Shown: positions 7,698 through 48,811 of the stretch, piece after piece | How positions within the stretch are numbered: position 1 is the first letter of the stretch | How the letters are laid out: each line of letters begins with the position of its first letter | Translations under genes and position numbers: made by a program | DNA from: Stenotrophomonas sp. SAU14A_NAIMI4_5 | Lineage (GTDB): Bacteria > Pseudomonadota > Gammaproteobacteria > Xanthomonadales > Xanthomonadaceae | Length of the DNA stretch: 64,000 nt | NCBI RefSeq assembly: GCF_003086795.1 | Contig: NZ_CP026003.1 | Coordinates: forward strand, 2,466,569-2,530,568 | Direction: 5' to 3' | Notes under the pieces: generated by a model | Told to the model about the DNA's origin: nothing | The model's input: the letters and a program-made list of their open reading frames with translations, nothing else | The model's database searches: none

Positions 7698-7704
7698 AAG
7701 GGCG

Positions 7705-9702: not shown

Positions 9703-9762
9703 CGGAATTCAAGCAGAGCGACAGCACCGGCGGATTATAGCGCTGCGGCGGGGCTGCGCTCC

Positions 9763-9869
9763 GTAGTGGTCAAGCTTGCTTGACCGCCTTTTGCCGTTCC
9801 GTCGAGCAGGCTCGACGCCTACCAGAGCGAAAGGCAAAGGCAACAGCCGTCGAGCAAGCTCGACGCTAC
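9763..9869. repeat. Three SMAG palindromes
   Basis: Copies lie at 9763-9785 (GTAGTGGTCAAGC...), 9801-9822 (ends GCCTAC) and 9849-9869 (ends GCTAC). The last overlaps the thioredoxin gene, whose TAG stop (9866-9868 on the minus strand) is the GTAG end of the repeat. The stems are GGTCAAGC/GCTTGACC and CGTCGAGC/GCTCGACG types. Confidence 0.8.
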
Positions 9870-10189: not shown

Positions 10190-10193
10190 GCCG

Positions 10194-10610
10194 TTACGCC
10201 GCCAGTGCGCGCTGGATGTCTTCCAGCGGTGCGTTGGTGAAGTTCTTGGCCAGGTCATCCAGCAGCCGCGCCTGCGTTTCCTTGTGCAGCAGCGGGCGGA
10301 TGCGGCCCAGGGTGATCGGATCGGCCACCAGGATCAGGTGCGAGTAGCGGTTCTTCAACGCATCCTCGTTCAACTGCTCGGCCACCTGCTTGGCGAACGT
10401 CGCTTCGTTGAGCTGGGAAATGGACATATCCTTCGGCACGGCACCGGCAGGCCCCTGTCCCGACACGCCCTGCTCGCTGATGTCCTGCAGGCGCAGCTCG
10501 CCCTGCTGCTTCAGCGTGAGCTGATGATCGGTGCCGACGTTGGTGAACACGCGCGCCGAACCACCATCAGTGACGACGACAAGGGTACCTTCGGGAATGC
10601 GACGGGTCAT
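10194..10610 (-). CDS. Host-attachment family protein (AtsE-like)
   Basis: This 138-residue protein starts at ATG 10610, preceded by CCGGAGC. It begins with a strand TLVVVTDGGSARVFTN and later carries YSHLILVADPITLGRIRPLL, both diagnostic of the family named for a plant-attachment protein of Agrobacterium (PF10116-type). These resemble eRF1-like or release-factor-like folds, and no enzymatic activity is established. It is the first gene of a two-gene operon with the thioredoxin-like protein; 4 nt separate them. A direct role in attachment here is only by family name. Confidence 0.75.
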   Translation of the reverse strand: MTRRIPEGTLVVVTDGGSARVFTNVGTDHQLTLKQQGELRLQDISEQGVSGQGPAGAVPKDMSISQLNEATFAKQVAEQLNEDALKNRYSHLILVADPITLGRIRPLLHKETQARLLDDLAKNFTNAPLEDIQRALAA

Positions 10611-33692: not shown

Positions 33693-34361
33693 TCAATCGC
33701 TGACGATGCGGCCGTCCACCATGCGTGCTACCTGCTGGCCGAACATGTCCACGTCGTGCGGGTCGTGGCTGATCAGCAGCAGCGGAATGCCGGTTTCAAC
33801 CAGCACCGCCTGCAGTTCCTGCCGCAGGTGCTGGCGCAGGTCATGGTCCAGCGCGGCAAACGGCTCATCCAGCAGCAGCGCCTGCGGCTGGGTCACCAGG
33901 GCGCGCGCCAGCGCGGTACGCTGGCGCTGGCCGCCGGAGACCTGCGACGGCAGCAGGTCGGCCACGTGATCGATACGGAACGCGTGCAGCCAGCGCTCCA
34001 CCGCGTCGATGCGCGCACCACGGCGCGGATTGAACCAGCCACGTTCCAGGCCGAAGGCCACGTTCTGGCGCACGCTCAGGTGTGGGAACAGCGCGTAGTC
34101 CTGGAATACATAGCCCAGCCGGCGCCGTTGCGGTGGCAGGTTCATCCCGCTGCTGCTGTCGAACAGCGCCTGGCCCTGCAGCCGCACATGGCCACGCCAG
34201 GGCCGCAGCAGGCCGGCCACCGCTTTCAGGGTCAGGCTCTTGCCCGCGCCCGAGGGGCCGAACAGCACCACCTGGCGCTGCGTGCATTGCAGCGCCACGT
34301 CCAGCACGAACTGCGGCGTCGCCGCCTGCATCGGCCGGTGCACCTGCAGGTCAAGCCACAT
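33693..34361 (-). CDS. modC: Molybdate ABC transporter ATPase ModC, short form
   Basis: This 222-residue protein shows Walker A GPSGAGKSLTLKAVAGLL, the signature VSGGQRQRTALARAL, Walker B ALLLDEPFAALD and the switch His in LLISHDPHDVD. It lacks the C-terminal TOBE (molybdopterin-binding-like) domain of the 352-residue E. coli ModC. The loop YVFQDYALFPHLSV is typical of ModC/PotA-like ATPases. Its start overlaps modB by 11 nt. Together with ModA and ModB it imports the molybdate needed for the nitrate reductase encoded in the same island. Confidence 0.9.
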   Translation of the reverse strand: MWLDLQVHRPMQAATPQFVLDVALQCTQRQVVLFGPSGAGKSLTLKAVAGLLRPWRGHVRLQGQALFDSSSGMNLPPQRRRLGYVFQDYALFPHLSVRQNVAFGLERGWFNPRRGARIDAVERWLHAFRIDHVADLLPSQVSGGQRQRTALARALVTQPQALLLDEPFAALDHDLRQHLRQELQAVLVETGIPLLLISHDPHDVDMFGQQVARMVDGRIVSD

Positions 34362-35034
34362 CGCGCAGCTCCTGGCGGCGCCCGCCGACCAGCCGCGCGG
34401 CCAGCAGCAGGATGACGATGCACACCACCGAGGTGAGGATCACCAGCGCATTGGCCTTGCCATCCTGCCCGGCCTGCACTGCCTCGTAGATGGCGATGGA
34501 CAGCGTCTGGGTGCGGCCCGGGATGCTGCCCGCCACCATCAGCGTGGCCCCGAACTCGCCCATCGCACGCGCAAAGGCCAGCAGCAGCCCGGCGAGAATG
34601 CCTCGCCAGGCCAGCGGAAGGGTGATGCGGAAGAATACCGCCGCCTCGGACACGCCCAGCGTGCGCGCAGCATTTTCCAGCTGGCCATCGACGCCTTCGA
34701 ACGCAGCCCGCGCCGGCTTGAACACCAGCGGCAGCGAGGCCACCGCGGCGGCAATCACCGCCGCCTGCCAGGTGAACACCAGGTTGATGCCGAACCACGA
34801 CTGCAGCCACACGCCGATCGGGCCATTCCGGCCGATCAGCACCAGCAGGTAGTAGCCCAGCACCGTCGGCGGCAGCACCATCGGCAGGGTCAGCACCGAA
34901 TCCAGCAGCTCACGGCCGGGAAAGCGCCGGCGCGCCAGCAGTGCGCCTAGTGCCACGCCCAGCACCAGGTTGATCGCCGTGGCCCAGCCGGCCACTTTCA
35001 GCGACAAGCCCAGCGCGCTCCAGTCCAGATCCAT
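34351..35034 (-). CDS. modB: Molybdate ABC transporter permease ModB
   Basis: This 227-residue inner-membrane protein has about five helices. It has the classic start DLDWSALGLSLKVA and the EAA-type coupling loop AARTLGVSEAAVFFRITLPL, together with FARAMGEFGATLMVAG, which is highly typical of ModB. It lies 3 nt after modA and overlaps modC by 11 nt, making a tight modABC operon directly downstream of the fnr gene. Confidence 0.93.
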   Translation of the reverse strand: MDLDWSALGLSLKVAGWATAINLVLGVALGALLARRRFPGRELLDSVLTLPMVLPPTVLGYYLLVLIGRNGPIGVWLQSWFGINLVFTWQAAVIAAAVASLPLVFKPARAAFEGVDGQLENAARTLGVSEAAVFFRITLPLAWRGILAGLLLAFARAMGEFGATLMVAGSIPGRTQTLSIAIYEAVQAGQDGKANALVILTSVVCIVILLLAARLVGGRRQELRDVA

Positions 35035-35037
35035 GCC

Positions 35038-35781
35038 TCAGGGCTTGCCGAACCCGTGCTTGACCAGGATCGCCTGGCCCTGCGGCGAGCGGACGAAGGC
35101 GGTGAAGCGCTTCGCTTCGACCGCATGAGTGCTGGCCTGGATCACCGCCAGCGGATAGGCGATGCGCCCGCTCACCGGCACCTCGAAGGCGCGGCGCACG
35201 CGGTCCGGCATCGCCTGCGCGTCAGTGGCGTAGACGAAGCCGGCATCCACTTCACCCCGTGCCACGTAGTCCAGCGACTGCCGCACGTTCTGGGTGGTGA
35301 TGGCCTTGCCCTGCACCGCCGGCCACAGCCCGGCTTTCTCCAGCGTGCCCTTGGCGTAGCGGCCCACCGGCACGCTGTCCGGGTTGCCCAGCGCGATGCG
35401 CTGCACGCCGGCACCGGCCAGATCCTTCAGCGCACGCGGTGCGGCCTTGGCCTGCGGTGGCACCACTACCCACAGCGCGTTCACCGCGAATACCTGGCGG
35501 GTGCCGGGCGCCAGCAGCTTCTGCTGCCCGGCCTGGTCCATCGTGGTTTCGTCGGCCGAGGCGAACACATCCACCGGCGCACCACGGCTGATCTGCTGCA
35601 GCAGCACGCCGGAGGCCGCAAAGTTGAAATCGACCTTGGTGCCCGGATGGGCCTTTTCGTAGGCCGCGCCCAGTTCGCGGAAACTCTCGGTCAGGCTCGA
35701 CGCCGCCGACACCGTCAGGTCGGCGGCCCAGGCCGGCATCGCGGCCAGCACCCCCAGTAACAACAGTCCTGCACGCTTCAT
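35038..35781 (-). CDS. modA: Molybdate-binding periplasmic protein ModA
   Basis: This 247-residue protein has a signal peptide (MKRAGLLLLGVLAAMPAWA, cleavage before ADLTV). The mature protein has the ModA signature TVSAASSLTESFRELG and FNFAASGVLLQQISRGAPVD followed by VFASAD, with the Ser residues that bind the oxyanion. Two ATGs lie side by side at 35784 and 35781; GGGAG is spaced 6 nt from 35781, which I prefer. Only 19 nt separate it from the fnr stop, so read-through from fnr is likely. No modE lies nearby. Confidence 0.92.
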   Translation of the reverse strand: MKRAGLLLLGVLAAMPAWAADLTVSAASSLTESFRELGAAYEKAHPGTKVDFNFAASGVLLQQISRGAPVDVFASADETTMDQAGQQKLLAPGTRQVFAVNALWVVVPPQAKAAPRALKDLAGAGVQRIALGNPDSVPVGRYAKGTLEKAGLWPAVQGKAITTQNVRQSLDYVARGEVDAGFVYATDAQAMPDRVRRAFEVPVSGRIAYPLAVIQASTHAVEAKRFTAFVRSPQGQAILVKHGFGKP

Positions 35782-35800
35782 CATCGGCTCCCGGTGGGTA

Positions 35801-36577
35801 TCAGTCTGGTTCGGATTCGTCGGCCATGGCGAGCGCAGCCAGGCGCTCAGGTTGCAGCAGCAGGATCTCGCGCTGTTTGACCGCGATCACACCGTCATCG
35901 CTCAAGCGCCGCAGCACACGGCTGGCGGTTTCCGGCGCCATGCGCAGGTAGTTGGCGATTTCGGTGCGGGCCATGGTCAGGTTGAAGCGCGTGGCGGAGA
36001 AACCGCGCCGCGCGTAACGCGCGGACATGTCCAGCAGGAACGCGGCCATGCGCTCCTCGGTGCGGTGGTTGGCGGCCAGCGTGGCGACCTTGCCGATCTC
36101 CGCACTGAGCAGGCTGAACAGCTTGGCCTGCAGCCCAGGCATGCGCGTGGCCAGCAGGCTCAGCTTGGGAAACGAAATGCGGCACAGGTGCACTGTATCC
36201 AGCGCCACCGCATTGCAGGGGAAGCGCGAACCGTGGATCGCATTGAGGCCGATCACTTCACCCGGCAGGGCAAAGCCGAGCACCTGGTCGTTGCCCTGGC
36301 TGTCATCGACGAAGGTCTTGACCATGCCTGCACGCACCGCGGCAATGGAATCGAACTGTTCGCCGGCACGGAAGATATAGTCACCGGCATGGAACGGACC
36401 CACATGGTCGACCAGCACGTGCAGGTCACCCAGCGCGGTCTTGTCATAGCCCTGCGAGATGCAGGCATCGGAAAACGCACAGGTGCTGCAGAAATGCAGC
36501 GCATCACCGTCATCGGCGGCGGCGGGGTTCGGTGTGGCCTGGCCAAGGCGGCCGCGGGAAGGCGGATTCATGGACAT
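35801..36577 (-). CDS. fnr: Fnr/Anr-type oxygen-sensing transcription regulator
   Basis: This 258-residue regulator has the three N-terminal cysteines in Fnr spacing, Cys30-x2-Cys33-x5-Cys39 (CSTCAFSDAC), and the fourth at Cys132 (VHLCRISF), giving a full set for an oxygen-labile [4Fe-4S] cluster. The cAMP-type beta-roll spans about 55-150 and a dimer helix follows. The recognition helix PETASRVLRRL carries the E-x-x-S-R residues that read TTGAT half-sites. I chose ATG 36577; MNPP at 36571 is possible, and neither has a strong ribosome-binding site. It lies 11 nt after the HemN-like gene and 19 nt before modA, so it probably shares their transcript and the FNR-like box at 37839. Confidence 0.92.
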   Translation of the reverse strand: MSMNPPSRGRLGQATPNPAAADDGDALHFCSTCAFSDACISQGYDKTALGDLHVLVDHVGPFHAGDYIFRAGEQFDSIAAVRAGMVKTFVDDSQGNDQVLGFALPGEVIGLNAIHGSRFPCNAVALDTVHLCRISFPKLSLLATRMPGLQAKLFSLLSAEIGKVATLAANHRTEERMAAFLLDMSARYARRGFSATRFNLTMARTEIANYLRMAPETASRVLRRLSDDGVIAVKQREILLLQPERLAALAMADESEPD

Positions 36578-36588
36578 CGGAGCGACAC

Positions 36589-37812
36589 TCAAGCGCTGGC
36601 GACCGCCGGCCGGAAACATGCCGCCATCATACGCCACAGCAGCCGCCCCTCCGCAGCCAGGCGCAGCACGCGCGCATCCCAGTGCGCCCAGCCGCGCGCA
36701 AGCAGCGGTTGCAGTTCCGGCGTGGCCTCGGCGAAACAATCATCAAAGGCGACGTCGTTGCGCCACTCGAAGGCGGCGGCATCCACCGAATGGTCGCAGG
36801 CCAGGCTCTGCGCGACCTCGGCCGACAGCCGCTCCTGCTCGGACAGGATCAGCCCGGCGGTCACGCCGATCTGGCCGGCCTGCAGGCGTGCCTGCCACTG
36901 TGCAAGGTCGTCCTCCAGCCGGTAGAACACCTCGCCGATCTGGCTGCAGGCCGCCAGCCCCAGGCCGACGAAGTCGCTGCGGTCGCGGCGCGGCACGCCG
37001 GCCAGGTCACAATGGCGCTGGCCATCGCCGGGCCCGTTGGGATCGGGCAGGTCACCGCGCTGGTAGTGGTCGCCACCGATGGCGACATAGCCGGCATCGC
37101 CAAGCAGCCGCCAGGCCTGCAGCCACTGCCCGGCCGCCGGCTGCTCCGGCAACCCGCACGGCGCGGGCAGCAGCACCCGTTCGGGTGCCTCGGCCAGCAC
37201 TTCATGTACGCGTTCGATGAAGCCCTGATCCGCGAGCGATGGCACCCGCAACTGGTAGTAGCGCGCAGTGAACCCAACCTGGCGTGACTGCGCCAGCAGG
37301 GTCGGCCCCATTGCATCGGCACGATCGATCACGGTCAGCCGGGTACAGCCCACCGCACGCAGCTGCGCCGGGGCCAGCGTACTACCGGCATCCAGCCGCA
37401 CTTCCACCTGCGGCCGAGCCACCGTGCGCAGATGCTGGGGCACGGCATCCAGCAGCTGGCCCAGCGCGCTGGCACCCAGTACCTCGGCCAGACCCAGCTG
37501 CAGCACCATGGCCACCACTTCGCGGTCGTCGGCCAGCACATCGGCCTGGCGCCGCAGGGCGGTCAACAGCGTATCCAGATAGATGTTGGCGGTGGTCAGC
37601 TGCCCTGCCCGCCCCGCCTGGAACCCGAGGGTCAGGCCGCGCGGAATCAGGTGCTCGTTGCTGGCCCGCACGGCTGCGCGCCAGCCACTTTCGCCGAAGC
37701 CGGCACTGAACTGGTCGGCGGCCGGAAACAGTACGTGGCGCGGCTGCTGCAGCAATGCAGCCTTCAGTGCGGTGTCTTCGCTTGCATCGACGGGGAAGCT
37801 CATGGCGGACAT
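36589..37812 (-). CDS. HemN-like protein without radical-SAM cysteines (probable pseudoenzyme)
   Basis: This 407-residue protein aligns by eye along its length with oxygen-independent coproporphyrinogen III dehydrogenase HemN. The N-terminal part has QFSAGFGESGWRAAV. The C-terminal half has YVAIGGDHYQRGDLPDP, DFVGLGLAACSQIGEVFY, LSEQERLSAEVAQSLACD and a final LAAEGRLLWRMMAACF. At the place of HemN's CxxxCxxC cluster loop the protein reads GLTLGFQAGRAGQLTTAN, so all three cluster cysteines and the following Cys are gone. The GGGTPT SAM-binding stretch is also lost (MVLQLGLAEVLGASA). It cannot be a normal radical-SAM enzyme. The frame is intact, sits just upstream of fnr, and has an FNR-like box upstream, so it is probably expressed. 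Confidence 0.75.
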   Translation of the reverse strand: MSAMSFPVDASEDTALKAALLQQPRHVLFPAADQFSAGFGESGWRAAVRASNEHLIPRGLTLGFQAGRAGQLTTANIYLDTLLTALRRQADVLADDREVVAMVLQLGLAEVLGASALGQLLDAVPQHLRTVARPQVEVRLDAGSTLAPAQLRAVGCTRLTVIDRADAMGPTLLAQSRQVGFTARYYQLRVPSLADQGFIERVHEVLAEAPERVLLPAPCGLPEQPAAGQWLQAWRLLGDAGYVAIGGDHYQRGDLPDPNGPGDGQRHCDLAGVPRRDRSDFVGLGLAACSQIGEVFYRLEDDLAQWQARLQAGQIGVTAGLILSEQERLSAEVAQSLACDHSVDAAAFEWRNDVAFDDCFAEATPELQPLLARGWAHWDARVLRLAAEGRLLWRMMAACFRPAVASA

Positions 37813-37838
37813 TTTCCAGCGTTCCTCTGCGCAGGGTC

Positions 37839-37852
37839 CTGATTGAAATCAA
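37839..37852 (-). promoter_or_regulatory. FNR-like box upstream of the HemN-like/fnr/mod genes
   Basis: CTGAT-TGAA-ATCAA (37839-37852, read on the plus strand) matches TTGAT-N4-ATCAA at 9 of 10 positions. It is centred about 33 nt upstream of ATG 37812 and overlaps the stop of the upstream transporter gene. It could drive the HemN-like, fnr and mod genes, giving fnr autoregulation. Confidence 0.6.
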
Positions 37853-39189
37853 GCGTGACGCTGCTGCCGTGCGCGATCGGCCGCGGCCGCGTCGATGGCT
37901 TCGGGCAGGTCGGTTTCGCGGTCGATCTGCGGGAAATGCCGGCGCTCCATCCGGCGGATCGCGAAGTGCATCCACGCCAGCGCCGTGGCCACCAGCACGA
38001 ACAGCAGCATGAAGCAGCTGCTCCAGATGCCCAGCGCATCGTTCAGCGCGCCGAACACGATGGGCAGGATGAAGCCACCCAGGCCACCGATCATGCCGAC
38101 CACGCCGCCCACCGCACCCACGTGCTGCGGGTAGTACACCGGAATGTGCTTATAGACCGCCGCCTTGCCCAGCGACATGAAGAAGCCCAGCACGAACACC
38201 AGCACGGTGAACATCACCACGCCGATGGCCAGGTGGAAGTGGATCGGGCCGTGGATGCCCTTCACTACATACTCGGTATCCGGATAGGCCAGCAGGAAGG
38301 TGCAGATGGCCGAGACGCCGAAGGTCCAGTACATCACCCGCCGCGCACCGATCCTGTCAGCCATCCAGCCGCCGACCACGCGGAACAGGCTGGCCGGAAT
38401 CGAATAGCAGGCCGCCAGCATGCCGGCGTGGCCCACGTCCATGCCGTAGGCGCCCACCAGATAGTGCGGCAGCCACAGTGCCAGGGCGACGAAGCCGCCG
38501 AACACGAAGAAGTAGTACAGCGAGAAGCGCCACACCTGCAGGTTCTTCAGCGGTGCCATCTGCTCGGCGAACGGCACCGGCTTGACGCCGTCACGGCGGC
38601 GCTGCTCCAGCGACGGGTCTTCCTTGCTGAACAGGAAAAACAGCACAGCGGTGACCGCCAGCGCCACCGCCCAGACCTTGGCCACCATGGTCCAGCCGGC
38701 CGCCACCATTACCAGCGGCGCCAGCAGCTTGGTCACCGCTGAACCGATGTTGCCCGCGCCGAAGATGCCCAGTGCCGTGCCCTGCCTGCTGGCCGGGAAG
38801 AACTTGGACACATAGGCCACGCCCACCGAGAAGTTGCCACCGGCAATGCCCACGCACAGCGCAGCGAACAGGAACTGGGTGTAGGTGTGGGCGTAGGTCA
38901 GCATCCAGGTGGCCACCGCGCCACACAGCATCACCAGCACCATCACCTTGCGGCCACCGAACTGGTCCGACCAGATGCCAAGGAAGACCCGGCTGATCGA
39001 TCCGGTCAGCACCGGGGTGGCGATCAGCAGGCCGAACTGGGTGTCGTTCAGCCCCAGCTGCTCGCTGATCTGGATGCCGATGATGGAGAAGATCATCCAC
39101 ACCGCGAAGCACACGGTGAAGGCGAAGGTGCTCAGCCACAGCGCACGCTGCTGCTGCCCGGCACTGACGGGGGCAAGGGCCTGGTTCAT
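37849..39189 (-). CDS. Second nitrate/nitrite transporter of the NarK1/NasA type (MFS)
   Basis: This 446-residue protein has 12 predicted helices. Nitrate-porter features are the helix 1 region TFAFTVCFAVWMIFSIIGIQ and the first nitrate signature GIAGGNFSVGVAYVSKFFP. The second-half motif is GGVVGMIGGLGGFILP. Its short N-terminus and overall pattern fit the type I (proton-coupled) group, unlike the type II NarK encoded upstream of narG. It follows the parvulin gene by 24 nt. Several nitrate respirers carry one porter of each type, one for initial import and one for nitrate/nitrite exchange; that split is inferred here. Confidence 0.87.
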   Translation of the reverse strand: MNQALAPVSAGQQQRALWLSTFAFTVCFAVWMIFSIIGIQISEQLGLNDTQFGLLIATPVLTGSISRVFLGIWSDQFGGRKVMVLVMLCGAVATWMLTYAHTYTQFLFAALCVGIAGGNFSVGVAYVSKFFPASRQGTALGIFGAGNIGSAVTKLLAPLVMVAAGWTMVAKVWAVALAVTAVLFFLFSKEDPSLEQRRRDGVKPVPFAEQMAPLKNLQVWRFSLYYFFVFGGFVALALWLPHYLVGAYGMDVGHAGMLAACYSIPASLFRVVGGWMADRIGARRVMYWTFGVSAICTFLLAYPDTEYVVKGIHGPIHFHLAIGVVMFTVLVFVLGFFMSLGKAAVYKHIPVYYPQHVGAVGGVVGMIGGLGGFILPIVFGALNDALGIWSSCFMLLFVLVATALAWMHFAIRRMERRHFPQIDRETDLPEAIDAAAADRARQQRHA

Positions 39190-39213
39190 GCAATCTCCTT
39201 TCCCAAGAGTGGG

Positions 39214-40113
39214 TCAGCCGTTCCCGGCTTCAGCTTCGATCTCATCCAGCCCGCGCACGGGGTAGCGTTCCTGCAGCTGCAGCAGGTAGGCCTGCACCTC
39301 GCGCTGGCGCACCTGCAGTTCCAGGTAGTCGCGGATCTGCGGCAGCACCGCCTCGAAAGGCTGCGGCTGCCCCTCCTCGCGCGCGTCGATGCAGACCACG
39401 TGGTAGCCCCAGCGCGATTCCACCGGGAAACCGGCCAGGCCCTCGCGCAGCCGGAACACCTGCCGGTCGAACTCGGGCGTGGTCTGGCCACGCTGCAGCC
39501 ATCCCAGATCACCGCCGTCGCTGCTGGACGGGCAGCGCGAATGGCGCAGGGCGAAGTCGGCGAACAGGTGCGGAGCCTCCTTCAGCTCGGCCACCAGCCG
39601 CTCGCCTTCGTTGCGTGCATCCAGCCGCCCGGCCACGTCATCGGCCGGTGCCGCCAGCAGGATATGGCGCAGGCGCACGCGATCGGGCGAACGGAAGCGT
39701 TCCGGGTTCTGTTCGAAATAGCGCCGGCAGTCCTCGTCGCTGGGCACGCGGTCTTCGATCGCGTCCTCGATCAGCTGCTGGATCAGCACTTCCTCGTCAC
39801 TCACCCGGCCACCCTGCGCTGCGTGCAGGCCCAACCGCTGCACCTCAAGGCGCAGCAGCTCGCGCACCACCAGCGCACGTGCCGCCTCGGCCCGCGACTG
39901 TTCCGGACGCATCGCCCGGTGGTGCTGCATCTCGCGGGCGATGTCGGCCTCGCTGATCGCGGTCTCGTCCACGTAAAGCCGGCACGGCGCCGGTTGCCCG
40001 AGCGAGCGCGGCCCCTGCGCCCCCGCCTCGTGGTGGTGCGAATGGGCCTCGGCCGGAACCGGGGCATTGGAGTCGATCACGGTGATCGGCAGGAACTTCG
40101 GCAGGCTGCCCAT
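39214..40113 (-). CDS. PpiC-type peptidyl-prolyl isomerase of the nar operon
   Basis: This 299-residue protein has a parvulin domain at about 150-260: RLRHILLAAPADDVAGR, FADFALRHSRCPSSSDGGDL and FPVESRWGYHVVCIDARE. A His-rich stretch (HSHHHE) lies near residue 25, and a SurA/NifM-like helical N-domain follows. No signal peptide is evident, so it should act in the cytoplasm. It begins 3 nt after narI. In Pseudomonas aeruginosa a PpiC-type gene also directly follows narI, so the link is conserved; NifM, a relative, helps mature nitrogenase. A role in NarGH maturation is plausible but unproven. Confidence 0.87.
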   Translation of the reverse strand: MGSLPKFLPITVIDSNAPVPAEAHSHHHEAGAQGPRSLGQPAPCRLYVDETAISEADIAREMQHHRAMRPEQSRAEAARALVVRELLRLEVQRLGLHAAQGGRVSDEEVLIQQLIEDAIEDRVPSDEDCRRYFEQNPERFRSPDRVRLRHILLAAPADDVAGRLDARNEGERLVAELKEAPHLFADFALRHSRCPSSSDGGDLGWLQRGQTTPEFDRQVFRLREGLAGFPVESRWGYHVVCIDAREEGQPQPFEAVLPQIRDYLELQVRQREVQAYLLQLQERYPVRGLDEIEAEAGNG

Positions 40114-40116
40114 GGC

Positions 40117-40824
40117 TTACTCCCGCGGACCGTAACGCAGCGGGGCCTGGCGGCGGCGCACCACTTGGTAGGGCCGCCACAGGTAGCTGATCGGAATGCT
40201 CCACACGTGCACCAGGCGGGTGAACGGTGCGATCAGGAACAGGGTCAGGCCCAGGAAGATGTGCATCTGGTAGACCCAGCTGACACCCTCGATGTAGTCG
40301 GCGGCACCGGCACGGAAGGTCACGATATGCTGCGCCCACTCGGCCAGCTGCACCATCACCCCACCATCAAGGTGCCCGGACGAGATGCGGATGCTGTACA
40401 GCCCCAGGCACAGCTGGGCAAACAGCAGCACCAGCACCAGCGTGTCGCCAAAACTGCCGGTGGCGCGCACCCGTGCATTGAACAGCCGGCGCACCAGCAG
40501 GATGCTGATGCCGATGAAGCACAGGGCACCGAACACGCCGCCCACCACCATCGCCAGCACCTGCTTCTGCGAGGAGGTGATGAAGTGCTCGTACACCGCA
40601 TGCGGGGTCAGCAGGCCCACCAGGTGGCCACCGAGAATGGCCAGGATGCCGATGTGGAAGCAGTTGCTGCCGATGCGCATGCCCTTGTCCGACAGCATCT
40701 GGCTGGAGCCGGTGCGCCAGGTGTACATGGCCTTGTCATAGCGGGCCCAGCTGCCGATCAGCAGCACCGCCACGGCGATGTACGGGTAGTACTGGAAGGC
40801 GAATTGATGCAGGTAGTAGTTCAT
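40117..40824 (-). CDS. narI: Respiratory nitrate reductase gamma subunit, cytochrome b NarI
   Basis: This 235-residue inner-membrane protein has five helices. It binds two haems b and passes electrons from quinol to NarH. Haem-ligand histidines are visible in NCFHIGILAILGGHLVGL (first pair region) and in VYQMHIFLGLTLFLIAPFTR with LVHVWSIP. The start MNYYLHQFAFQYYPYIA is typical. It overlaps narJ by 4 nt (ATGA at 40821-40824). Confidence 0.95.
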   Translation of the reverse strand: MNYYLHQFAFQYYPYIAVAVLLIGSWARYDKAMYTWRTGSSQMLSDKGMRIGSNCFHIGILAILGGHLVGLLTPHAVYEHFITSSQKQVLAMVVGGVFGALCFIGISILLVRRLFNARVRATGSFGDTLVLVLLFAQLCLGLYSIRISSGHLDGGVMVQLAEWAQHIVTFRAGAADYIEGVSWVYQMHIFLGLTLFLIAPFTRLVHVWSIPISYLWRPYQVVRRRQAPLRYGPRE

Positions 40825-41501
40825 GGCTGGACCTCACGGTGCACGGGACGGCCGGGCGAGCGCGTCGGTGGCTTGCAGTCTTCGGCAGGGGCTTCGGCGC
40901 CGAAGCGTACCGCCTCCTCTTCCCACAACCGGTCCATCGCCTCGGCGGTATCGTCGCGGGGTTCCTCGCTGGCGCGTTGCCGCAGCGCCTCCAGGTTGAT
41001 CTTGCCGTCGCCGGCCTCCACCAGGATTTCCAGCAGCGGCACATGCGGCAGTTTGCGCTCGGCCGCACGTGCGGCCAGCATCCCGGCGATATGGCCGATG
41101 TGGTGCAGCCATTCGCGGGCCTCCTCCTGCGGCCGGTGCGCCAGGAATTCCAGCAGCAGTGGCAGGTAGTCCGGCAGTTCGCGGGCATCAAGCTCGAAAC
41201 CGGCCCGCCGGTAGGTCTCCACCAGGTCGACCATGGCCTGGCCACGGTCACGCGATTCGCCATGGATGTGTTCAAACAGCAACAGGCTCATCGAGCGGCC
41301 GCGGTCGAAGGTCGCCAGCCAGGCGGCCTGCGCGTCGAGCGGATCGCTGTCCAGCAGCTGCTGCACGAAACCGCGCAGCTGCTGGCGGCGGCCAGCCGAC
41401 AACGTGGCCTGGTCACAGGCGGCCAGCAGTTCGTCGCCGTGCTGCCACAGTTCTTCGCGGGGATAATCCAGCAGCACCCCGACCAGCTTCAGGACGCTCA
41501 T
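40821..41501 (-). CDS. narJ: Nitrate reductase assembly chaperone NarJ
   Basis: This 226-residue all-helical chaperone binds the NarG N-terminus and helps insert the Mo cofactor before membrane attachment to NarI. The family features are LKLVGVLLDYPREELWQH at the start and SMSLLLFEHIHGESRDRGQA followed by MVDLVETYRRAGF. It overlaps both narH and narI by 4 nt, which keeps stoichiometry by coupled translation. The C-terminal tail is charged and Pro-rich. Confidence 0.95.
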   Translation of the reverse strand: MSVLKLVGVLLDYPREELWQHGDELLAACDQATLSAGRRQQLRGFVQQLLDSDPLDAQAAWLATFDRGRSMSLLLFEHIHGESRDRGQAMVDLVETYRRAGFELDARELPDYLPLLLEFLAHRPQEEAREWLHHIGHIAGMLAARAAERKLPHVPLLEILVEAGDGKINLEALRQRASEEPRDDTAEAMDRLWEEEAVRFGAEAPAEDCKPPTRSPGRPVHREVQP

Positions 41502-43048
41502 TCGACCACCTCCTTGCGGCGCCGGTGATTCGGCCCGTTGTTGACCACGAAGCTGGTGGTCTTGCGCTGGCCGAACAGGTCGGCCGGGCTGTCACCGTTG
41601 CAGCCGTTGCCGAAGGTGAAGCCGCAGCCGCCGCGCTCGCCGAAGGCATCGCTGGCGTACTCGCGATGGCCGGTGGGAATCACGAAACGGTCCTCGTAGT
41701 TGGCGATGGCCAGGTAGCGGTACATCTCCTCGACCTGGGCGATGCTCAGGCCGGCCTGGTCGAGTACCGCGGTGTCCTCCACGCCATCCACGTTCTTGGC
41801 CCGGCGCCAGGCGCGCATCGCCATCAGCCGTTCCAGCGCGCGCACCACCGGCGCTTCGTCGCCCGCGGTCAGCAGGTTGGCCAGGTAGCGCACCGGGATG
41901 CGCAGCGACGCCACGTCCGGCAGCTCGCCGCTCATGCCGATGCGGCCCCGCTCGGCGGCCGACTGGATCGGCGACAGCGGCGGCACGTACCAGACCATCG
42001 GCAGCGTGCGGTATTCCGGGTGCAGCGGCAGGGCCAGCTTCCAGTCGATGGCCAGCTTGTACACCGGCGACTGCCTGGCCGCTTCCAGCCAGCTGTCCGG
42101 GATGCCTTCCTTGCGCGCAGCAGCGATCACCGCCGGGTCTTCCGGGTCCAGGAAGATGTCCAGGTGTGCCTGGTACAGATCCTTCTCCGCGGCCACCGAA
42201 GCGGCCTCGGCAATCCGGTCGGCGTCGTACAGCATCACACCCAGGTAGCGGATGCGGCCCACGCAGGTTTCCGAACACACCGTGGGCTCGCCCATCTCGA
42301 TGCGCGGGTAGCAGAAGATGCACTTCTCCGACTTGCCGCTCTTCCAGTTGTAGTAGATCTTCTTGTACGGGCAGGCCGACACGCACATGCGCCAGCCGCG
42401 GCACTTGTCCTGGTCGATCAGCACGATGCCGTCTTCCTCGCGCTTGTAGATCGCACCGGACGGGCACGCCGACACGCACGCCGGGTTCAGGCAGTGCTCG
42501 CACAGGCGCGGCAGGTACATCATGAAGGTCTTTTCGAAGGCCCCGTAGATCTCCTTCTGCACTTCATTGAAGTTGTAGTCGCGCGAGCGCTTGCTGAACT
42601 CCGAACCGAGGATCTCCTCCCAGTTCGGGCCCCACTCGATCTTCTGCATGCGCTCGCCGCTGATCAGCGAACGCGGCCGCGCGGTCGGCTGGTGCTGGCT
42701 GTCCTTAGCGGTGTGCAGGTTCTGGTAGTCGAAGTCGAACGGCTCGTAGTAGTCGTCGATCTGCGGCAGGTCCGGGTTGGCGAAGATCTTGGCCAGCATC
42801 CGCCAGCGGCCACCGGCGCGCGGCACCAGCTTGCCGGCGCGGGTACGCACCCAGCCGCCATTCCACTTGTCCTGGTTCTCCCACTCCTTGGGGTAGCCGA
42901 TGCCTGGCTTGGTTTCCACGTTGTTGAACCAGGCGTACTCGACGCCCTCGCGCGAGGTCCAGACGTTCTTGCAGGTGATCGAGCAGGTATGGCAGCCGAT
43001 GCACTTGTCCAGGTTCAGTACCATCGCGATCTGTGCACGGACCTTCAT
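41498..43048 (-). CDS. narH: Respiratory nitrate reductase beta subunit, iron-sulfur protein NarH
   Basis: This 516-residue cytoplasmic subunit carries four Fe-S clusters. Cysteine groups are seen at the N-terminus (CIGCHTCSITC), at about 180 (CEHCLNPACVSACPSG) and at about 210-260 (CRGWRMCVSACPYKK, then CIFCYPR and CSETC). The Trp in CxxW replaces one Cys, which makes the adjacent cluster a [3Fe-4S], as in E. coli NarH. ATG 43048 shares its A with the narG stop (TGATG). It passes electrons from NarI to NarG. Confidence 0.96.
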   Translation of the reverse strand: MKVRAQIAMVLNLDKCIGCHTCSITCKNVWTSREGVEYAWFNNVETKPGIGYPKEWENQDKWNGGWVRTRAGKLVPRAGGRWRMLAKIFANPDLPQIDDYYEPFDFDYQNLHTAKDSQHQPTARPRSLISGERMQKIEWGPNWEEILGSEFSKRSRDYNFNEVQKEIYGAFEKTFMMYLPRLCEHCLNPACVSACPSGAIYKREEDGIVLIDQDKCRGWRMCVSACPYKKIYYNWKSGKSEKCIFCYPRIEMGEPTVCSETCVGRIRYLGVMLYDADRIAEAASVAAEKDLYQAHLDIFLDPEDPAVIAAARKEGIPDSWLEAARQSPVYKLAIDWKLALPLHPEYRTLPMVWYVPPLSPIQSAAERGRIGMSGELPDVASLRIPVRYLANLLTAGDEAPVVRALERLMAMRAWRRAKNVDGVEDTAVLDQAGLSIAQVEEMYRYLAIANYEDRFVIPTGHREYASDAFGERGGCGFTFGNGCNGDSPADLFGQRKTTSFVVNNGPNHRRRKEVVE

Positions 43049-46000
43049 CACACCACCTCCTTGGCGGCGGCCGGAACGGCCTCGCCATCCAGCCAATCGA
43101 TCTTGTCCATCTTGCGGACGATCACGAACTCATCGCGGTTGGTGCCGCAGGTGCCGTAGTAGTTGAAACCGTACGCCAGCTGCGCGTAGCCACCGATCAT
43201 GTGGGTGGGCTTGAGCACGATGCGGGTGACCGAATTGTGGATGCCGCCACGGGTGCCGGTGATCTGCGAGCCCGGCACGTTGATGATGCGTTCCTGGGCG
43301 TGGTACATCATCGCCATGCCGGGCATCACCCGCTGGCTGACCACCGCTCTCGCGGCGATCGCACCGTTGACGTTGAACAGCTCGATCCAGTCGTTGTCGA
43401 CGATGCCGGCACTGCGCGCGTCGTCCTCGCTCAGCCACACGATGGGGCCGCCACGCGACAGCGTCTGCATGATCAGGTTGTCGCTGTAGGTGCTGTGGAT
43501 GCCCCACTTCTGGTGCGGGGTGATCCAGTTCAGCACGATCTCCTTGTTGCCGTTCGGGCGCTGGTTCAGCAGCGGCTCCACCGTGCGCGTGTTGACCGGC
43601 GGCCGGTAGCTCATGAAGGCCTCGCCGAAGTCGATCATCCACTCATGATCCTGGTAGAACTGCTGGCGCCCGGTCACGGTGCGCCACGGAATCAGCTCGT
43701 GCACGTTGGTGTAGCCCGCGTTGTAGCTGACGTTGTCGTCCTCCAGGCCCGACCAGATCGGCGAGGAGATGATCTTGCGCGGCTGCGCCTGGATGTCACG
43801 GAAGCGGATCGCCTCGTGTTCCTTGCCCACCGCCAGGTGGGTGTGCTCGCGGCCGGTGAACGTGCCCAGCGATTCCCAGGCCTTCACTGCCACGTGGCCG
43901 TTGGTCTCCGGGGCAAGGTGCAGGATCACTTCGGCCGCGTCGATGGCGGTCTCGATGGCCGGTCGTCCCTGGCTGACGCCCTCGGCGTGCACGGTATGGT
44001 TGAGCTTGCCGAGGAAATCGATCTCGTGCTTCGTATCCCAGTTCATGCCCTTGCCACCGTTGCCGAGCTTGTCCAGCAGCGGGCCCAGCGAGGTGAACTT
44101 GCGATACAGGTTGGGGTAATCGCGCTCGACCACCGTCATCGACGGCATGGTCTGGCCCGGGATGGCCTCGCACTCGCCCTTCTTCCAGTCGGCCACGCCG
44201 AACGGCATGCCCAGCTCATTGGGCGTGTCATGCAGGGTCGGCACCAGCACCAGGTCCTTTTCAACGCCCAGCACGCCCGGTGCCATGTCGCTGAGGGTGC
44301 GTGCCACGCCCTTGAAGATGTCCCAGTCGCTGCGCGATTCCCAGGCCGGGTCCACCGCCTTGGACAGCGGGTGGATGAAGGGATGCATGTCCGAGGTGTT
44401 GAGGTCGTCCTTCTCGTACCAGGTGGCCGTGGGCAGCACGATGTCCGAATACAGCGCGGTGGTGCACATGCGGAAATCGAGCGTGACCAGCAGGTCCAGC
44501 TTGCCCTCCGGAGCTTCGTCATGCCACTTCACTTCCTGCGGCTTGATCGCGCCCATCTCGCCCAGGTCCTTGCCCTGCAGGCCATGGCGCGTGCCGAGCA
44601 GGTGGCGCAGCATGTATTCATGGCCCTTGCCCGAGGAACCCAGCAGGTTCGAGCGCCAGATGAACATCATGCGCGGGTGGTTCTGCTGTGCATCCGGGTC
44701 GGCGAAGGCGAAGTCCAGCGAGCCGTCCTTGAACTTGCCCAGCGCGTAGTCGGCCGGGGCCACGCCGGCCGCTTCAGCCTCGCGCACCAGCTGCAGCGGA
44801 TTGCGGTCCAGCTGCGGGGTACTGGGCAGCCAGCCCATGCGCACCGCACGCAGGTTCAGATCGGCCAGGCTGCCGCTGTACTTGCTGGCGTCGGCCAGCG
44901 GTGACAGCAGCTCGTCCACCTGCAGCTTCTCGTAGCGCCACTGCCCGGTGTTGAAGTAGAAGAACGAGGTGCCGTTCATGTGGCGCGGCGGGCGGCTCCA
45001 GTCCAGGCCGAAGGCCAGCGGCTGCCAGCCGGTCTGCGGGCGCAGCTTTTCCTGGCCCACGTAATGCGCCCAGCCGCCACCGGTCTGGCCCACGCAGCCA
45101 CACATGATCAGCATGTTGATCAGGCCGCGGTAGTTCATGTCGTTGTGGAACCAGTGGTTCATGCCCGCGCCGACGATGATCATCGAGCGGCCGTGGGTCT
45201 TGTCGGCGGTGCGGGCGAACTCACGGGCGATCTCGATCACTTCAGCGCGCGACACGCCGGTGATGCGTTCCTGCCAGGCCGGGGTGCCCGGTACCATGTC
45301 GTCGAAGCTGGTGGCCACGTTGCCGCCGCCGAAGCCACGGTCCACGCCATACTGGGCCAGCAGCAGGTCGTAGACCGTGGCTACCAGGGTGTCGCCGCCG
45401 TCGGCCAGGGCCAGACGACGCACCGGGATGTTGCGGTCGAGCACGTCCTCGGCCGGGGCCGCGGTCCAGCCGTCGGTCTCGATGCCGCCGAAGTACGGGA
45501 AACTGACCGCTTCAATGCCCTCATGGCCGTCGGCCAGGCTCAGCCGCAGACGGGTATCGGCGCCGTTGCTCTCCTTTTCCTCGATGTTCCACTTGCCCTT
45601 CTCGCCCCAGCGGAAGCCGATGGAGCCGTTGGGCACCACGATCTGGCCGCTGCTCTCGTCGTAGGCCAGGGTCTTCCAGTCGGGGTTGTTGGCCTCGCCC
45701 AGCCCACCCAGTTCGCTGGCGCGCAGGAAGCGGCCCGGCACCAGGCGGCCATCGTCACGGCGCTCCAGGCGCACCAGCATCGGCATGTCCGAATACTGGC
45801 GGCAGTAGTCCTGGAAATACTGCGAAGGCGAATCGACATGGAACTCGCGCAGGATCACATGGCCGAAGGCAAAGGCCAGTGCCGCGTCGGTACCCTGCTT
45901 GGGGTGCAGCCAGTGGTCGGTCAGCTTGGCCAGCTCGGAATAGTCCGGGCAGATCGCCACCGTCTTGGTGCCGTTGTAGCGCGCCTCGGTGAAGAAGTGC

Positions 46001-46791
46001 GCATCGGGCGTGCGCGTCTGCGGCACGTTCGAGCCCCAGGCGATGATGTAGCGGCTGTTGTACCAGTCGGCCGATTCGGGCACGTCGGTCTGTTCGCCCC
46101 AGATCTGCGGCGAGGCCGGTGGCAGGTCGCAGTACCAGTCGTAGAAGGACAGGCAGGCGCCGCCCAGCAGCGACAGGTAACGCGCGCCCGCGGCATAGGA
46201 CACCATCGACATCGCCGGGATCGGCGAGAAGCCGACCACGCGGTCCGGCCCGTACTGCTTCACCGTGTACAGGTTGGAGGCGGCGATGATCTCGTTGGCC
46301 TCTTCCCATTGCAGGCGCACGAAGCCGCCCATGCCACGGCGGGTCTTGTACGAGCGCGCTTTGTCCTTGTCCTCGACGATGCTGGCCCAGGCATCCACCG
46401 GCGCCATGTTCCTGCGGGCTTCACGCCACAGGCGCAGCAGGGTGCCGCGGATCAGCGGGTACTTCAGGCGGTTGGCGCTGTACAGGTACCAGGAATAGCT
46501 GGCGCCACGCGGGCAGCCACGCGGTTCATGGTTGGGCAGGTCCGGGCGCGTGCGCGGGTAGTCGGTCTGCTGGGTTTCCCAGGTGACCAGGCCGTTCTTG
46601 ACGTAGATCTTCCAGCTGCACGAACCAGTGCAGTTCACCCCGTGGGTGGAGCGGACGATCTTGTCGTACTGCCAGCGCTGGCGGTAACTGTTTTCCCAGT
46701 CGCGCCCCTCGCTCTTGGCAAAACCATGGCCATCGGCAAAGGTCTGGGGTTCACGCTTGAAGAACTGCAAGCGATCAAGGAAATAACTCAT
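43048..46791 (-). CDS. narG: Respiratory nitrate reductase alpha subunit NarG
   Basis: This 1247-residue molybdo-bis-MGD enzyme reduces nitrate to nitrite at the cytoplasmic face. The FS0 cluster ligands are placed in STHGVNCTGSCSWKI (His and two Cys) and EPRGCPRGASYSWYLYS (Cys). The Mo-ligand Asp region follows. The length matches E. coli NarG (1247), and the N-terminus has a vestigial Tat-like pattern (SYFLDRLQFFKREP) but no export signal. AGGGAG precedes the ATG. The cofactor comes from the Moco genes immediately upstream in the island, molybdate from modABC downstream. Confidence 0.97.
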   Translation of the reverse strand: MSYFLDRLQFFKREPQTFADGHGFAKSEGRDWENSYRQRWQYDKIVRSTHGVNCTGSCSWKIYVKNGLVTWETQQTDYPRTRPDLPNHEPRGCPRGASYSWYLYSANRLKYPLIRGTLLRLWREARRNMAPVDAWASIVEDKDKARSYKTRRGMGGFVRLQWEEANEIIAASNLYTVKQYGPDRVVGFSPIPAMSMVSYAAGARYLSLLGGACLSFYDWYCDLPPASPQIWGEQTDVPESADWYNSRYIIAWGSNVPQTRTPDAHFFTEARYNGTKTVAICPDYSELAKLTDHWLHPKQGTDAALAFAFGHVILREFHVDSPSQYFQDYCRQYSDMPMLVRLERRDDGRLVPGRFLRASELGGLGEANNPDWKTLAYDESSGQIVVPNGSIGFRWGEKGKWNIEEKESNGADTRLRLSLADGHEGIEAVSFPYFGGIETDGWTAAPAEDVLDRNIPVRRLALADGGDTLVATVYDLLLAQYGVDRGFGGGNVATSFDDMVPGTPAWQERITGVSRAEVIEIAREFARTADKTHGRSMIIVGAGMNHWFHNDMNYRGLINMLIMCGCVGQTGGGWAHYVGQEKLRPQTGWQPLAFGLDWSRPPRHMNGTSFFYFNTGQWRYEKLQVDELLSPLADASKYSGSLADLNLRAVRMGWLPSTPQLDRNPLQLVREAEAAGVAPADYALGKFKDGSLDFAFADPDAQQNHPRMMFIWRSNLLGSSGKGHEYMLRHLLGTRHGLQGKDLGEMGAIKPQEVKWHDEAPEGKLDLLVTLDFRMCTTALYSDIVLPTATWYEKDDLNTSDMHPFIHPLSKAVDPAWESRSDWDIFKGVARTLSDMAPGVLGVEKDLVLVPTLHDTPNELGMPFGVADWKKGECEAIPGQTMPSMTVVERDYPNLYRKFTSLGPLLDKLGNGGKGMNWDTKHEIDFLGKLNHTVHAEGVSQGRPAIETAIDAAEVILHLAPETNGHVAVKAWESLGTFTGREHTHLAVGKEHEAIRFRDIQAQPRKIISSPIWSGLEDDNVSYNAGYTNVHELIPWRTVTGRQQFYQDHEWMIDFGEAFMSYRPPVNTRTVEPLLNQRPNGNKEIVLNWITPHQKWGIHSTYSDNLIMQTLSRGGPIVWLSEDDARSAGIVDNDWIELFNVNGAIAARAVVSQRVMPGMAMMYHAQERIINVPGSQITGTRGGIHNSVTRIVLKPTHMIGGYAQLAYGFNYYGTCGTNRDEFVIVRKMDKIDWLDGEAVPAAAKEVV

Positions 46792-46878
46792 CGTGGATCT
46801 CCCTTTGCGGACATCGGCATCGTGGCTGGGGTGTTCATTGGCTTCGGTGCACTGCTCGGGTTGTCAGCTGGGCTGCCC

Positions 46879-48297
46879 CTAGCAGGGGGTTTCAGCACCG
46901 CGCCGGTAGTACCACCACCAGGTCACGGCCAGGCAGGTGAAGTAGAAAGCGATGAATCCGTACAGCGCCATGTCGGGGCTGCCGGTCAAGGTGATGGACG
47001 AGCCGTAGCTCTTGGGGATGAAGAAGCCGCCGTAGGCACCGATCGCGCCGGAGAAACCGACCACGGCGGCCGATTCGATGCTGGCCTGGTGCCCGGCGGC
47101 GGCCTTGCCCTCGGCGCTGTCGTTGGCCGACCAGCGCTCATGCAGGGTGCGGAAGATCACCGGAATCATGCGGAAGGTGGTGCCGTTGCCGATGCCGCTG
47201 AGCACGAACAGCGCCATGAAGCTGAGCAGGAATCCGTAGAAGTTGCCGCCCTGGCCATGGCTGGGCAGGAAGTGCAGCACGCCGAACACCGCGGCGATCA
47301 TCAGCGCGAACACCCAGAAGGTCAGGCGCGCGCCGCCCCAGCGGTCGGCCATGCTGCCGCCCACCGAGCGCATCAGCGCGCCCAGCAGGGGGCCGATGAA
47401 GGCGTAGGCCAGCGGGTTCACATCCGGGAACTGGCTCTTGACCAGCATCGGGAAGCCGGCCGAGAAGCCGATGTAGGAACCGAAGGTGCCGATGTACAGC
47501 CAGCACATCAGCCAGTTATGCTTGCGGCGGAAGATCACCGCCTGCTCGGCGAACGAAGAACGGGCGCTGGTCAGGTCATTCATGCCGAACCAGGCCGCCA
47601 CCGCGCAGACCGCGATGGCCGGCACCCAGATGAAGCCGGCGTTCTGCAGGTACAGCGGTGCCCCGCCCTCCACCGCCGGCTGCGGCGCGCCACCCAGCGC
47701 ACCAAACACGCCCGCGGTGATCACCAGCGGAATGACCGCCTGGGCGACCGACACGCCCACATTGCCCAGGCCCGCGTTCAGGCCCAGCGCCAGGCCCTGC
47801 TTCTGCTTGGGGTAGAAGAAGGAAATGTTGGACATCGACGAAGAGAAATTCGCCCCGCCGAAGCCACACAGGATCGCGATCACCACGAACACCCAGTACG
47901 GGGTGGCCGGGTTCTGCACGGCGAAGCCCAACCAGATTGTCGGTGCCAGCAGCGAGGCGGTGGACAGCGCCGTCCAGCGGCGGCCACCGAAGATCGGGAT
48001 GACGAAGGAATAGAAGATGCGCAGCGTGGCGCCGGACAGGCTGGGCAGGGCCACCAGCCAGAACAGCTGGTCGGTGCTGAAGCTGAAGCCGATCTTCGGC
48101 AGGCTGATGGTCACTGCCGAGAACAGCACCCAGACCGCGAAGGCCAGCAGCAGCGACGGTATGGAGATGACCAGGTTGCGGGTGGCGACCCGTTTGCCGG
48201 TGCGCTCCCAGTAGCCAGCGTCTTCCGGCGCCCAGTCGCTGATGACGCGGCCGGGACTGGCAGTGCTTCGGACAACAGGATCGCTACCGACGGTCAT
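46879..48297 (-). CDS. narK: Nitrate/nitrite antiporter NarK (E. coli type)
   Basis: This 472-residue, 12-helix MFS protein resembles E. coli NarK from end to end. The N-terminal VISDWAPEDAGYWERTGKRV, the helix 1 region SIPSLLLAFAVWVLFSAV, VPIFGGRRWTALST-like FVIPIFGGRRWTALST, signature CGFGGANFSSSMSNISFFYP and the end region GGFFIPKSYGSS all fit. It imports nitrate in exchange for nitrite during respiration. It is the first gene of the nar cluster, 87 nt ahead of narG, and follows the best FNR box in the window (48394-48407). Confidence 0.94.
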   Translation of the reverse strand: MTVGSDPVVRSTASPGRVISDWAPEDAGYWERTGKRVATRNLVISIPSLLLAFAVWVLFSAVTISLPKIGFSFSTDQLFWLVALPSLSGATLRIFYSFVIPIFGGRRWTALSTASLLAPTIWLGFAVQNPATPYWVFVVIAILCGFGGANFSSSMSNISFFYPKQKQGLALGLNAGLGNVGVSVAQAVIPLVITAGVFGALGGAPQPAVEGGAPLYLQNAGFIWVPAIAVCAVAAWFGMNDLTSARSSFAEQAVIFRRKHNWLMCWLYIGTFGSYIGFSAGFPMLVKSQFPDVNPLAYAFIGPLLGALMRSVGGSMADRWGGARLTFWVFALMIAAVFGVLHFLPSHGQGGNFYGFLLSFMALFVLSGIGNGTTFRMIPVIFRTLHERWSANDSAEGKAAAGHQASIESAAVVGFSGAIGAYGGFFIPKSYGSSITLTGSPDMALYGFIAFYFTCLAVTWWWYYRRGAETPC

Positions 48298-48393
48298 ACA
48301 TGGCTCCAGGGCTGTGGAATGACGTGGGTACTGCTTTCAAGTTGTAACCCGTCGTCATGGGCCTCATTAGGCCCGCACTGCGCGATGACGGGG

Positions 48394-48407
48394 TTGATCT
48401 GGATCAA
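48394..48407 (-). promoter_or_regulatory. Perfect FNR box upstream of narK
   Basis: TTGAT-CTGG-ATCAA is a complete match to the FNR/Anr consensus, centred about 103 nt upstream of the narK ATG at 48297. It lies in the only sizeable gap (48298-48442) of this stretch and should control anaerobic expression of narK-narGHJI. No NarL heptamer pattern was obvious by eye. Confidence 0.8.
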
Positions 48408-48432
48408 TCAGGGGCGGGTTTCCACCCTGCCC

Positions 48433-48446
48433 CTGACAAATGTCAA
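48433..48446. promoter_or_regulatory. Second Crp/Fnr-type palindrome upstream of narK
   Basis: CTGAC-AAAT-GTCAA contains the palindrome TGAC-N4-GTCA. Its half-sites resemble those of DNR/NNR-type nitric-oxide regulators more than FNR. It overlaps the last codons of the upstream hypothetical gene, 39 nt from the perfect FNR box. The regulator is not in the window. Confidence 0.4.
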
Positions 48447-48811
48447 ATCGGTGACTCGGTACTGCCGCGGCGGCTCACGCCGCGCTGGCGCACGCTGTCA
48501 CGCACGTCCACATCGAACTGCAGCTGCAGCGTGGTGCCGTCATCCAGGTACAGCGCAAAGCCGAGCCCATCACGGCACGGCAGGCGCCCGGCCAAGCCGT
48601 CCACCGCCGCACGCGGCAGCACCAGCCGGCAGTAGGTGCCACCATCGAGCAGCACCGCCTGGTCGCCGCCGTGCAGCGACACCGCCGTGCCCCAGCCGCC
48701 GTTGCCGCCGAACCGGGTCAGGTTCTCGACCGATTCACCGGCCAGCAGCTGCGCCAGTTCAGCCTCATCCAGGCGCAGACGCATCGCTTGTTCCTGCAGC
48801 TGCACCTTCAT
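48443..48811 (-). CDS. Small protein of unknown function coupled to mobA
   Basis: This 122-residue cytoplasmic protein has no motif I know. It is rich in predicted beta strands. It opens MKVQLQEQAMRLRLDEAELA and continues through GGWGTAVSLHGGDQAVLLDG to ALYLDDGTTLQLQFDVDV. The start ATG 48811 overlaps the mobA stop (ATGA). Its place as the last gene of the Moco cluster and just ahead of narK suggests a role in cofactor handling or nitrate reductase assembly; this is inferred only from context. The C-terminus overlaps a Crp/Fnr-type palindrome. Confidence 0.6.
   Translation of the reverse strand: MKVQLQEQAMRLRLDEAELAQLLAGESVENLTRFGGNGGWGTAVSLHGGDQAVLLDGGTYCRLVLPRAAVDGLAGRLPCRDGLGFALYLDDGTTLQLQFDVDVRDSVRQRGVSRRGSTESPI

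Follow-up and report, generated by a model that had tools for sequence, protein, structure and literature searches.

A Cys-less HemN-like pseudoenzyme gene in the nitrate-respiration island of Stenotrophomonas

Among the relatives of HemN, HemW is described in passages of two papers as lacking radical SAM enzyme activity, binding haem and supplying NarI (PMC11442138, PMC10320005). One of these passages reports that haem transfer by HemW depends on its 4Fe-4S cluster. The same text presents CgdH2 of Campylobacter jejuni as a HemN-like protein without dehydrogenase activity that binds haem with a Kd of 4.9 uM and is suggested to receive it from ferrochelatase, and it gives GPRYTSYPTA and RNFQGYTT as motifs required for coproporphyrinogen dehydrogenase activity (PMC10320005). 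HemN-like proteins without an iron site are already a named kind, because a profile model exists for PsgB (TIGR04419), whose name is HemN-related non-iron pseudo-SAM protein. In S. maltophilia, the nar operon comprises Smlt2769-Smlt2774 and a hemN is Smlt1690, with no second hemN named in the passages on it (PMC10304680). Among the titles and openings of abstracts listed in literature searches, none describes a Cys-less HemN of a nar cluster, and of ten papers listed for pseudo-SAM names none deals, by title, with proteins of this kind.

Here we analysed a window of 64,000 nucleotides, the whole stretch of DNA under study, from Stenotrophomonas sp. SAU14A_NAIMI4_5. The gene of interest, pHemN (36589..37812, minus strand), is an intact open reading frame of 407 residues encoding a Cys-less HemN-like pseudoenzyme. 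It lies in the order narK_a-narGHJI-ppiC-narK_b-pHemN-fnr-modABC, with all genes on the minus strand. The NarK/NarU transporter gene narK_a (46879..48297; TIGR00886, 347 bits, above the cut-off) is followed by narG (43048..46791; TIGR01580, 2259 bits), narH (41498..43096; TIGR01660, 983 bits), narJ (40821..41501; TIGR00684, 118 bits against a cut-off of 59) and narI (40117..40824; TIGR00351, 268 bits against 106). Between narI and narK_b, the nar cluster includes a gene for a PpiC-type peptidyl-prolyl isomerase (39214..40113), which related loci retain as well. Next upstream of pHemN is narK_b (37849..39189), a NarK-like MFS transporter gene whose best NCBIfam match is TIGR00886 at 229 bits, under the cut-off of 312. 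Next downstream is an fnr homologue (35801..36571) with Crp HTH and cNMP-binding domains, which scores 180 bits with the NCBIfam Fnr subfamily (cut-off 228), followed by modC, modB and modA (33693..35784; modA and modB above the TIGR cut-offs, modC below at 193 of 285 bits).

The FNR-like box predicted directly in front of pHemN is present at 37839..37852, a near-palindrome with one mismatch that overlaps the narK_b stop; an FNR box without mismatch lies upstream of narK_a (48394..48407). Only ~34 bp separate the former from the start of pHemN, an unusual distance that many orthologs share. Of 18 Stenotrophomonas regions checked, which are part of the loci, 16 have a one-mismatch box; in 15 its centre lies 34-42 bp from the match start, so that direct activation is uncertain.

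Catalytic motifs and fold of pHemN

According to the original prediction, pHemN keeps the layout of HemN while the cluster cysteines and the GGGTPT site are lost. Both halves of this description stand in an alignment of 45 pHemN sequences, 48 long Cys-less forms and 74 real HemN proteins, the last group being defined by the presence of CxxxCxxC(xC). The four cysteine columns are gapped in 45/45 pHemN sequences and present in 74/74 real HemN, as they must be in a group set by the motif; in pHemN, the deleted CxxxCxxCxC loop would have stood at about residues 65-69 (37606..37620, minus strand). The strand and loop bearing the GGGTP SAM site in real HemN correspond to residues 99-112 (VVAMVLQLGLAEVL; 37477..37518, minus strand), where the commonest letters among the 45 sequences are QLGLA. 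The positions of Tyr56, Gln172 and Arg184 are altered or missing in all 45 and that of Glu145 in 44, with numbers and roles after the E. coli HemN structure. The GPRYTSYPTA and RNFxGYTT motifs are both altered, the latter being replaced by residues 266-278 (RHCDLAGVPRRDR; 36979..37017, minus strand), in which R266, R275 and R278 are invariant (45/45). A Gln specific to the Cys-less group occupies the His position of SAIS(H/M)IG, which is Met in E. coli, in 93/93 Cys-less sequences, while 71 of the 74 real HemN proteins have His. Cluster, SAM site, active-site residues and activity motifs are all lost or altered, and therefore catalysis by the HemN mechanism is excluded as far as the sequence tells.

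A HemN-like fold with its C-terminal domain is retained, in alignment and in structure, and is confident over the whole length of pHemN. The HemN_C domain covers residues 323-392 (36637..36846, minus strand; Pfam PF06969, 30.4 bits against a cut-off of 24), and a profile of 24 Cys-less proteins aligns with 1OLT over the full length (E 1e-92). With the hemN model TIGR00538, pHemN scores 77.3 bits, below the cut-off of 324.95. All 24 Cys-less members match this model and 15 of them match the HemW model weakly; pHemN itself has no match to TIGR00539 (HemW). Besides the fold and HemN_C, pHemN shares with HemN/CgdH (TIGR00538; 1OLT) the N-terminal SN..IP and D-R-[DE]-V elements and the gene order hemN-fnr seen in relatives, but it differs in lacking CxxxCxxC, GGGTP, Tyr56/Gln172/Arg184, GPRYTSYPTA and RNFxGYTT. 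Like HemW, it is related to HemN and would have no activity as a radical SAM enzyme; HemW, in contrast, keeps the cluster motif, whereas pHemN has no 4Fe-4S cluster ligands and is closer to HemN. PsgB, going by the name of its model, is likewise without an iron site, yet TIGR04419 gave no match at E 10 among 8 Cys-less proteins, a search in which HMMER filters may lose weak matches; in the genome search with this model, pHemN had no match and the sole match, below the cut-off, was the HemW gene. The HutW/ChuW and STM4012 families show weak profile similarity to the Cys-less forms, with scores far below the cut-offs, and unlike these forms they are named radical SAM proteins.

The same genome holds a real HemN with all motifs present (G000:C1:1701482-1702849; 532 bits, cut-off 325) and its own HemW (G000:C1:3631172; 353 bits, cut-off 205). 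At least one further HemN-like match occurs in 35/35 pHemN genomes (short pieces only in G199) and in 10/10 genomes outside the genus that carry Cys-less forms, with the motifs read in some of them. We also considered that pHemN might be a real HemN disguised by misalignment or a frameshift. This reading was rejected because an intact HemN lies elsewhere in the genome and the deletion is common to 45 sequences.

Maintenance of pHemN and its linkage to nar

A pHemN ortholog (E 7e-73 or better) was found in 35 of 91 genomes of the genus, one of which, G222, has a stated contamination of 10% and a match of 42% identity. Two outcomes that would speak against a pseudoenzyme, a protein without a HemN-like fold and relatives with many frameshifts or stops, were looked for; the fold is there, and none of the 35 ortholog matches has an internal stop. 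The median dN/dS of pHemN is 0.28 (13 sequences, 78 pairs), with 0.143-0.164 for three close pairs, and 63 residues are invariant across the 45 sequences. pHemN is thus under purifying selection and is maintained, as the original prediction had held from its intact frame and the FNR-like box. Against this background, a decaying duplicate of a hemN-fnr pair, retained by linkage alone, appears highly improbable. Its one point of support is that pHemN evolves fastest of six genes, the medians of narI, narK_b, fnr, ppiC and modA being 0.11-0.25, but its value is far from neutral, and stop-free frames, invariant residues and a confident whole-length fold do not agree with decay. One stop was counted in 7 listed Cys-less matches of the family survey; in six the coordinates overrun the C-terminus of the ortholog match, and the seventh, G130, has an open frame of 446 codons.

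The proposed place of pHemN in a nitrate-respiration island is supported by its distribution. narG scores above the cut-off in 40 of the 91 genomes, and pHemN is present in 35 of these vs 0/51 others (Fisher 4e-20, uncorrected for kinship; each species is represented by a single genome and the species are kin, so that Fisher values overstate independence). An fnr at least 76% identical occurs in 58 genomes, 23 of which have no narG, and none of these 23 carries pHemN. The block narK_a-GHJI-ppiC-narK_b-pHemN (36572..48807) is missing as a unit from four sites that retain fnr-modABC on one side and the mobA-like/moeA genes on the other (L145, L146, L147, L152). There, fnr-modABC lies ~430-440 bases from the mobA-like gene. 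The four empty sites keep fnr and lack the whole block, so that the boundary falls between fnr and pHemN and leaves the latter with nar. They are four of ten nar-less fnr loci examined; in the remaining six, no modABC accompanies fnr. Our data support the view that pHemN follows nar, not fnr.

This bears on the idea that pHemN works with the neighbouring Fnr, for example in its maturation or autoregulation. The gene is directly upstream of fnr in 28/28 loci that hold it (57 examined, some being the same contig twice), it has the FNR-like box in front, fnr adjoins 8 of 10 loci outside the genus, and real hemN-fnr pairs exist in the family. The absence of any copy from the 23 narG-less genomes with a close fnr, together with the empty sites that keep fnr, nevertheless makes an Fnr partner very unlikely.

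Genome G188 has two fnr-modABC copies, one with the nar block (L094) and one as an empty site (L152), a hint that the nar region arrived in one piece. No match was found in a plasmid collection that would point to plasmid carriage. G182 and G199 carry fragmentary nar genes. Five narG genomes have no pHemN. Three of them (G149, G162, G224) have a nar cluster without pHemN and fnr, and a real hemN-fnr pair elsewhere; in G224, this fnr-paired HemN is in two pieces (L155, about 8479-9911, minus strand), by a frameshift or a sequencing error. In G230, the contig stops short of the pHemN place. The fifth, G160, carries a degenerate HemN next to an fnr, on a different contig and away from the nar cluster (L070, about 9025-10272, minus strand), with a half-eroded CGSACSC and GSGT for GGGT. 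L070 could be either an early Cys-less branch or a second loss. Further HemN-like proteins with intact CSYRCGFC and GGGTPT were seen in L102 (G230) at 6614-7975 and in L103 (G196, about 7730-8950); the L102 protein belongs to the STM4012 family of radical SAM proteins (584 bits against a cut-off of 380).

A wider Cys-less group in the family

In the nar clusters of G061 and G115, the place between narK_b and fnr is taken by a HemN-like protein that is longer and likewise has none of the cysteines. Among the 120 of 289 matches listed in a search with the G061 form, and counting the query, 48 are without and 73 with CxxxCxxC. Surveying 395 genomes of the family revealed Cys-less long forms in 10 of the 361 genomes outside the genus, called by a score gap (at least 524 bits vs at most 460 for the next rows outside the genus), and all ten lack both CxxxCxxC and GGGT. 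One of them, in G239, has a loop reading ALHF, with a His present. A survey of Stenotrophomonas and Xanthomonas for the Cys-less form had been proposed; such forms occur in the former and in four other genera of the family, and conservation in Xanthomonas was not demonstrated. A genus-specific oddity was considered and rejected, as long forms are present in other genera.

Outside the genus too, the Cys-less forms accompany nitrate respiration. Nine of the ten genomes have narG on the same contig as the gene, compared with 49 of 361 overall (Fisher 7e-8, uncorrected for kinship); the assembly of the tenth, G239, is incomplete and places narK and modABC close by. Within ~20 kb stretches, 7/10 long forms have nar genes besides narK beside them. 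The reverse does not hold, as Cys-less forms scoring above the gap are missing from 40 of the 49 outside genomes with narG. An order-wide search at E 1e-139 found such forms in 7 of 299 genomes, all of the same family; this threshold and the score gap would miss diverged forms, several Stenotrophomonas forms scoring 446-454 bits, as real HemN proteins also do.

In each of four quick trees, with the active-site columns kept in, Cys-less and real HemN proteins fall on opposite sides. The SH-aLRT support of the branch between them is 99.7 without HemW and L070 and also 99.7 with HemW. It is 86.9 with L070, or 91.9 if L070 is grouped with the Cys-less forms, and 10 in a 102-row tree with L070, HemW and L102 together. 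A single origin of the Cys-less forms is likely, not proven. The retained fold, the lost motifs, the selection and the position in the nar island support the pseudoenzyme reading, which can be widened to a proposed group of Cys-less HemN proteins associated with nar islands.

Possible roles in nitrate respiration

pHemN probably has a different, non-enzymatic job tied to anaerobic respiration. We tentatively favour, at a little less than an even chance, that it is a HemN paralogue without radical-SAM chemistry, kept as a non-catalytic component of the nar block, which handles a tetrapyrrole. In this reading pHemN is, first, a dead radical SAM enzyme, as its sequence shows, and second, would serve nitrate respiration, as its linkage supports. 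Third, its barrel and C-terminal domain may bind a tetrapyrrole, most likely haem. Under anaerobiosis, pHemN might then deliver haem to, or buffer it for, the cytochrome b NarI or further haem proteins of anaerobic metabolism, a task comparable to that of HemW. Haem binding by pHemN is suggested by homology to HemW and CgdH2 and by the replaced residues. The likeness to CgdH2 is partial, since, going by the passage that describes it, CgdH2 retains LYxHxPFCxxxCxxC and its reported His ligands, a motif which the Stenotrophomonas pHemN does not have.

The replaced residues differ between the two Cys-less branches. Among the long forms, at least 46/48 sequences agree in each of 20 columns that depart from the real HemN consensus. 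In four of these columns, His61, Arg213, Arg246 and His286 (P0050 numbering) stand in 48/48 for Tyr, Asn, Tyr and Tyr of real HemN. His61 is at the Tyr56 position and Arg213 is two residues before that of Asp209, so by a parity argument both should face the barrel. At the four positions, the Stenotrophomonas form has mostly G, Y, P and P. It keeps HemN's own His (H249, 45/45) and has gained, besides the three invariant arginines, R276 and R139 (44/45 each); all but R139 are in the former RNFxGYTT loop. Compared with real HemN, no gained His, Cys or Tyr is common to both branches.

A broader and more doubtful version is that the nar islands of the family carry a dedicated Fe-S-free haem carrier in the form of a rebuilt HemN barrel. 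The long forms could then have a bis-His, two-Arg haem site, and the Stenotrophomonas branch would have been shortened and remodelled again. We are aware of no further haem chaperone with a HemN fold that functions in the absence of a cluster. The lack of a shared new ligand and the reported cluster dependence of HemW put a haem carrier at less than an even chance. In addition, the genome has its own HemW, and the narG genomes without a Cys-less form (5/40 in the genus and, by the score gap, 40/49 outside) indicate that NarGHI is evidently possible without pHemN.

Pseudoenzyme paralogues often regulate their active kin. pHemN, with the same fold as the enzyme and a further HemN-like gene in the genome, might accordingly be a regulator or decoy of real HemN, binding either coproporphyrinogen or the HemN protein and adjusting haem synthesis under anaerobiosis at the onset of nitrate respiration. 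We consider this unlikely, as the altered dehydrogenase activity motifs make substrate binding in the old mode doubtful. The new arginines, four of them in the old active-site loop, and the long branch in the tree (2.49) could alternatively reflect a new cluster-free activity in the same barrel, such as binding or converting another anionic ligand. No catalytic set was recognised among the residues, and the chance of such an activity appears slim.

For the haem-handling reading that we favour, a role of pHemN would bear on haem supply to NarI. A radical SAM fold that stays under selection after losing both cluster and SAM site offers a clear case for testing how HemN-like proteins take on other jobs. 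The finding also concerns annotation. Ten of the 48 relatives come with a source name, six as coproporphyrinogen III oxidase and four as hypothetical protein, and the former label hardly fits Cys-less forms by known chemistry. Where such forms are mislabelled, metabolic reconstructions may count a HemN that is absent.
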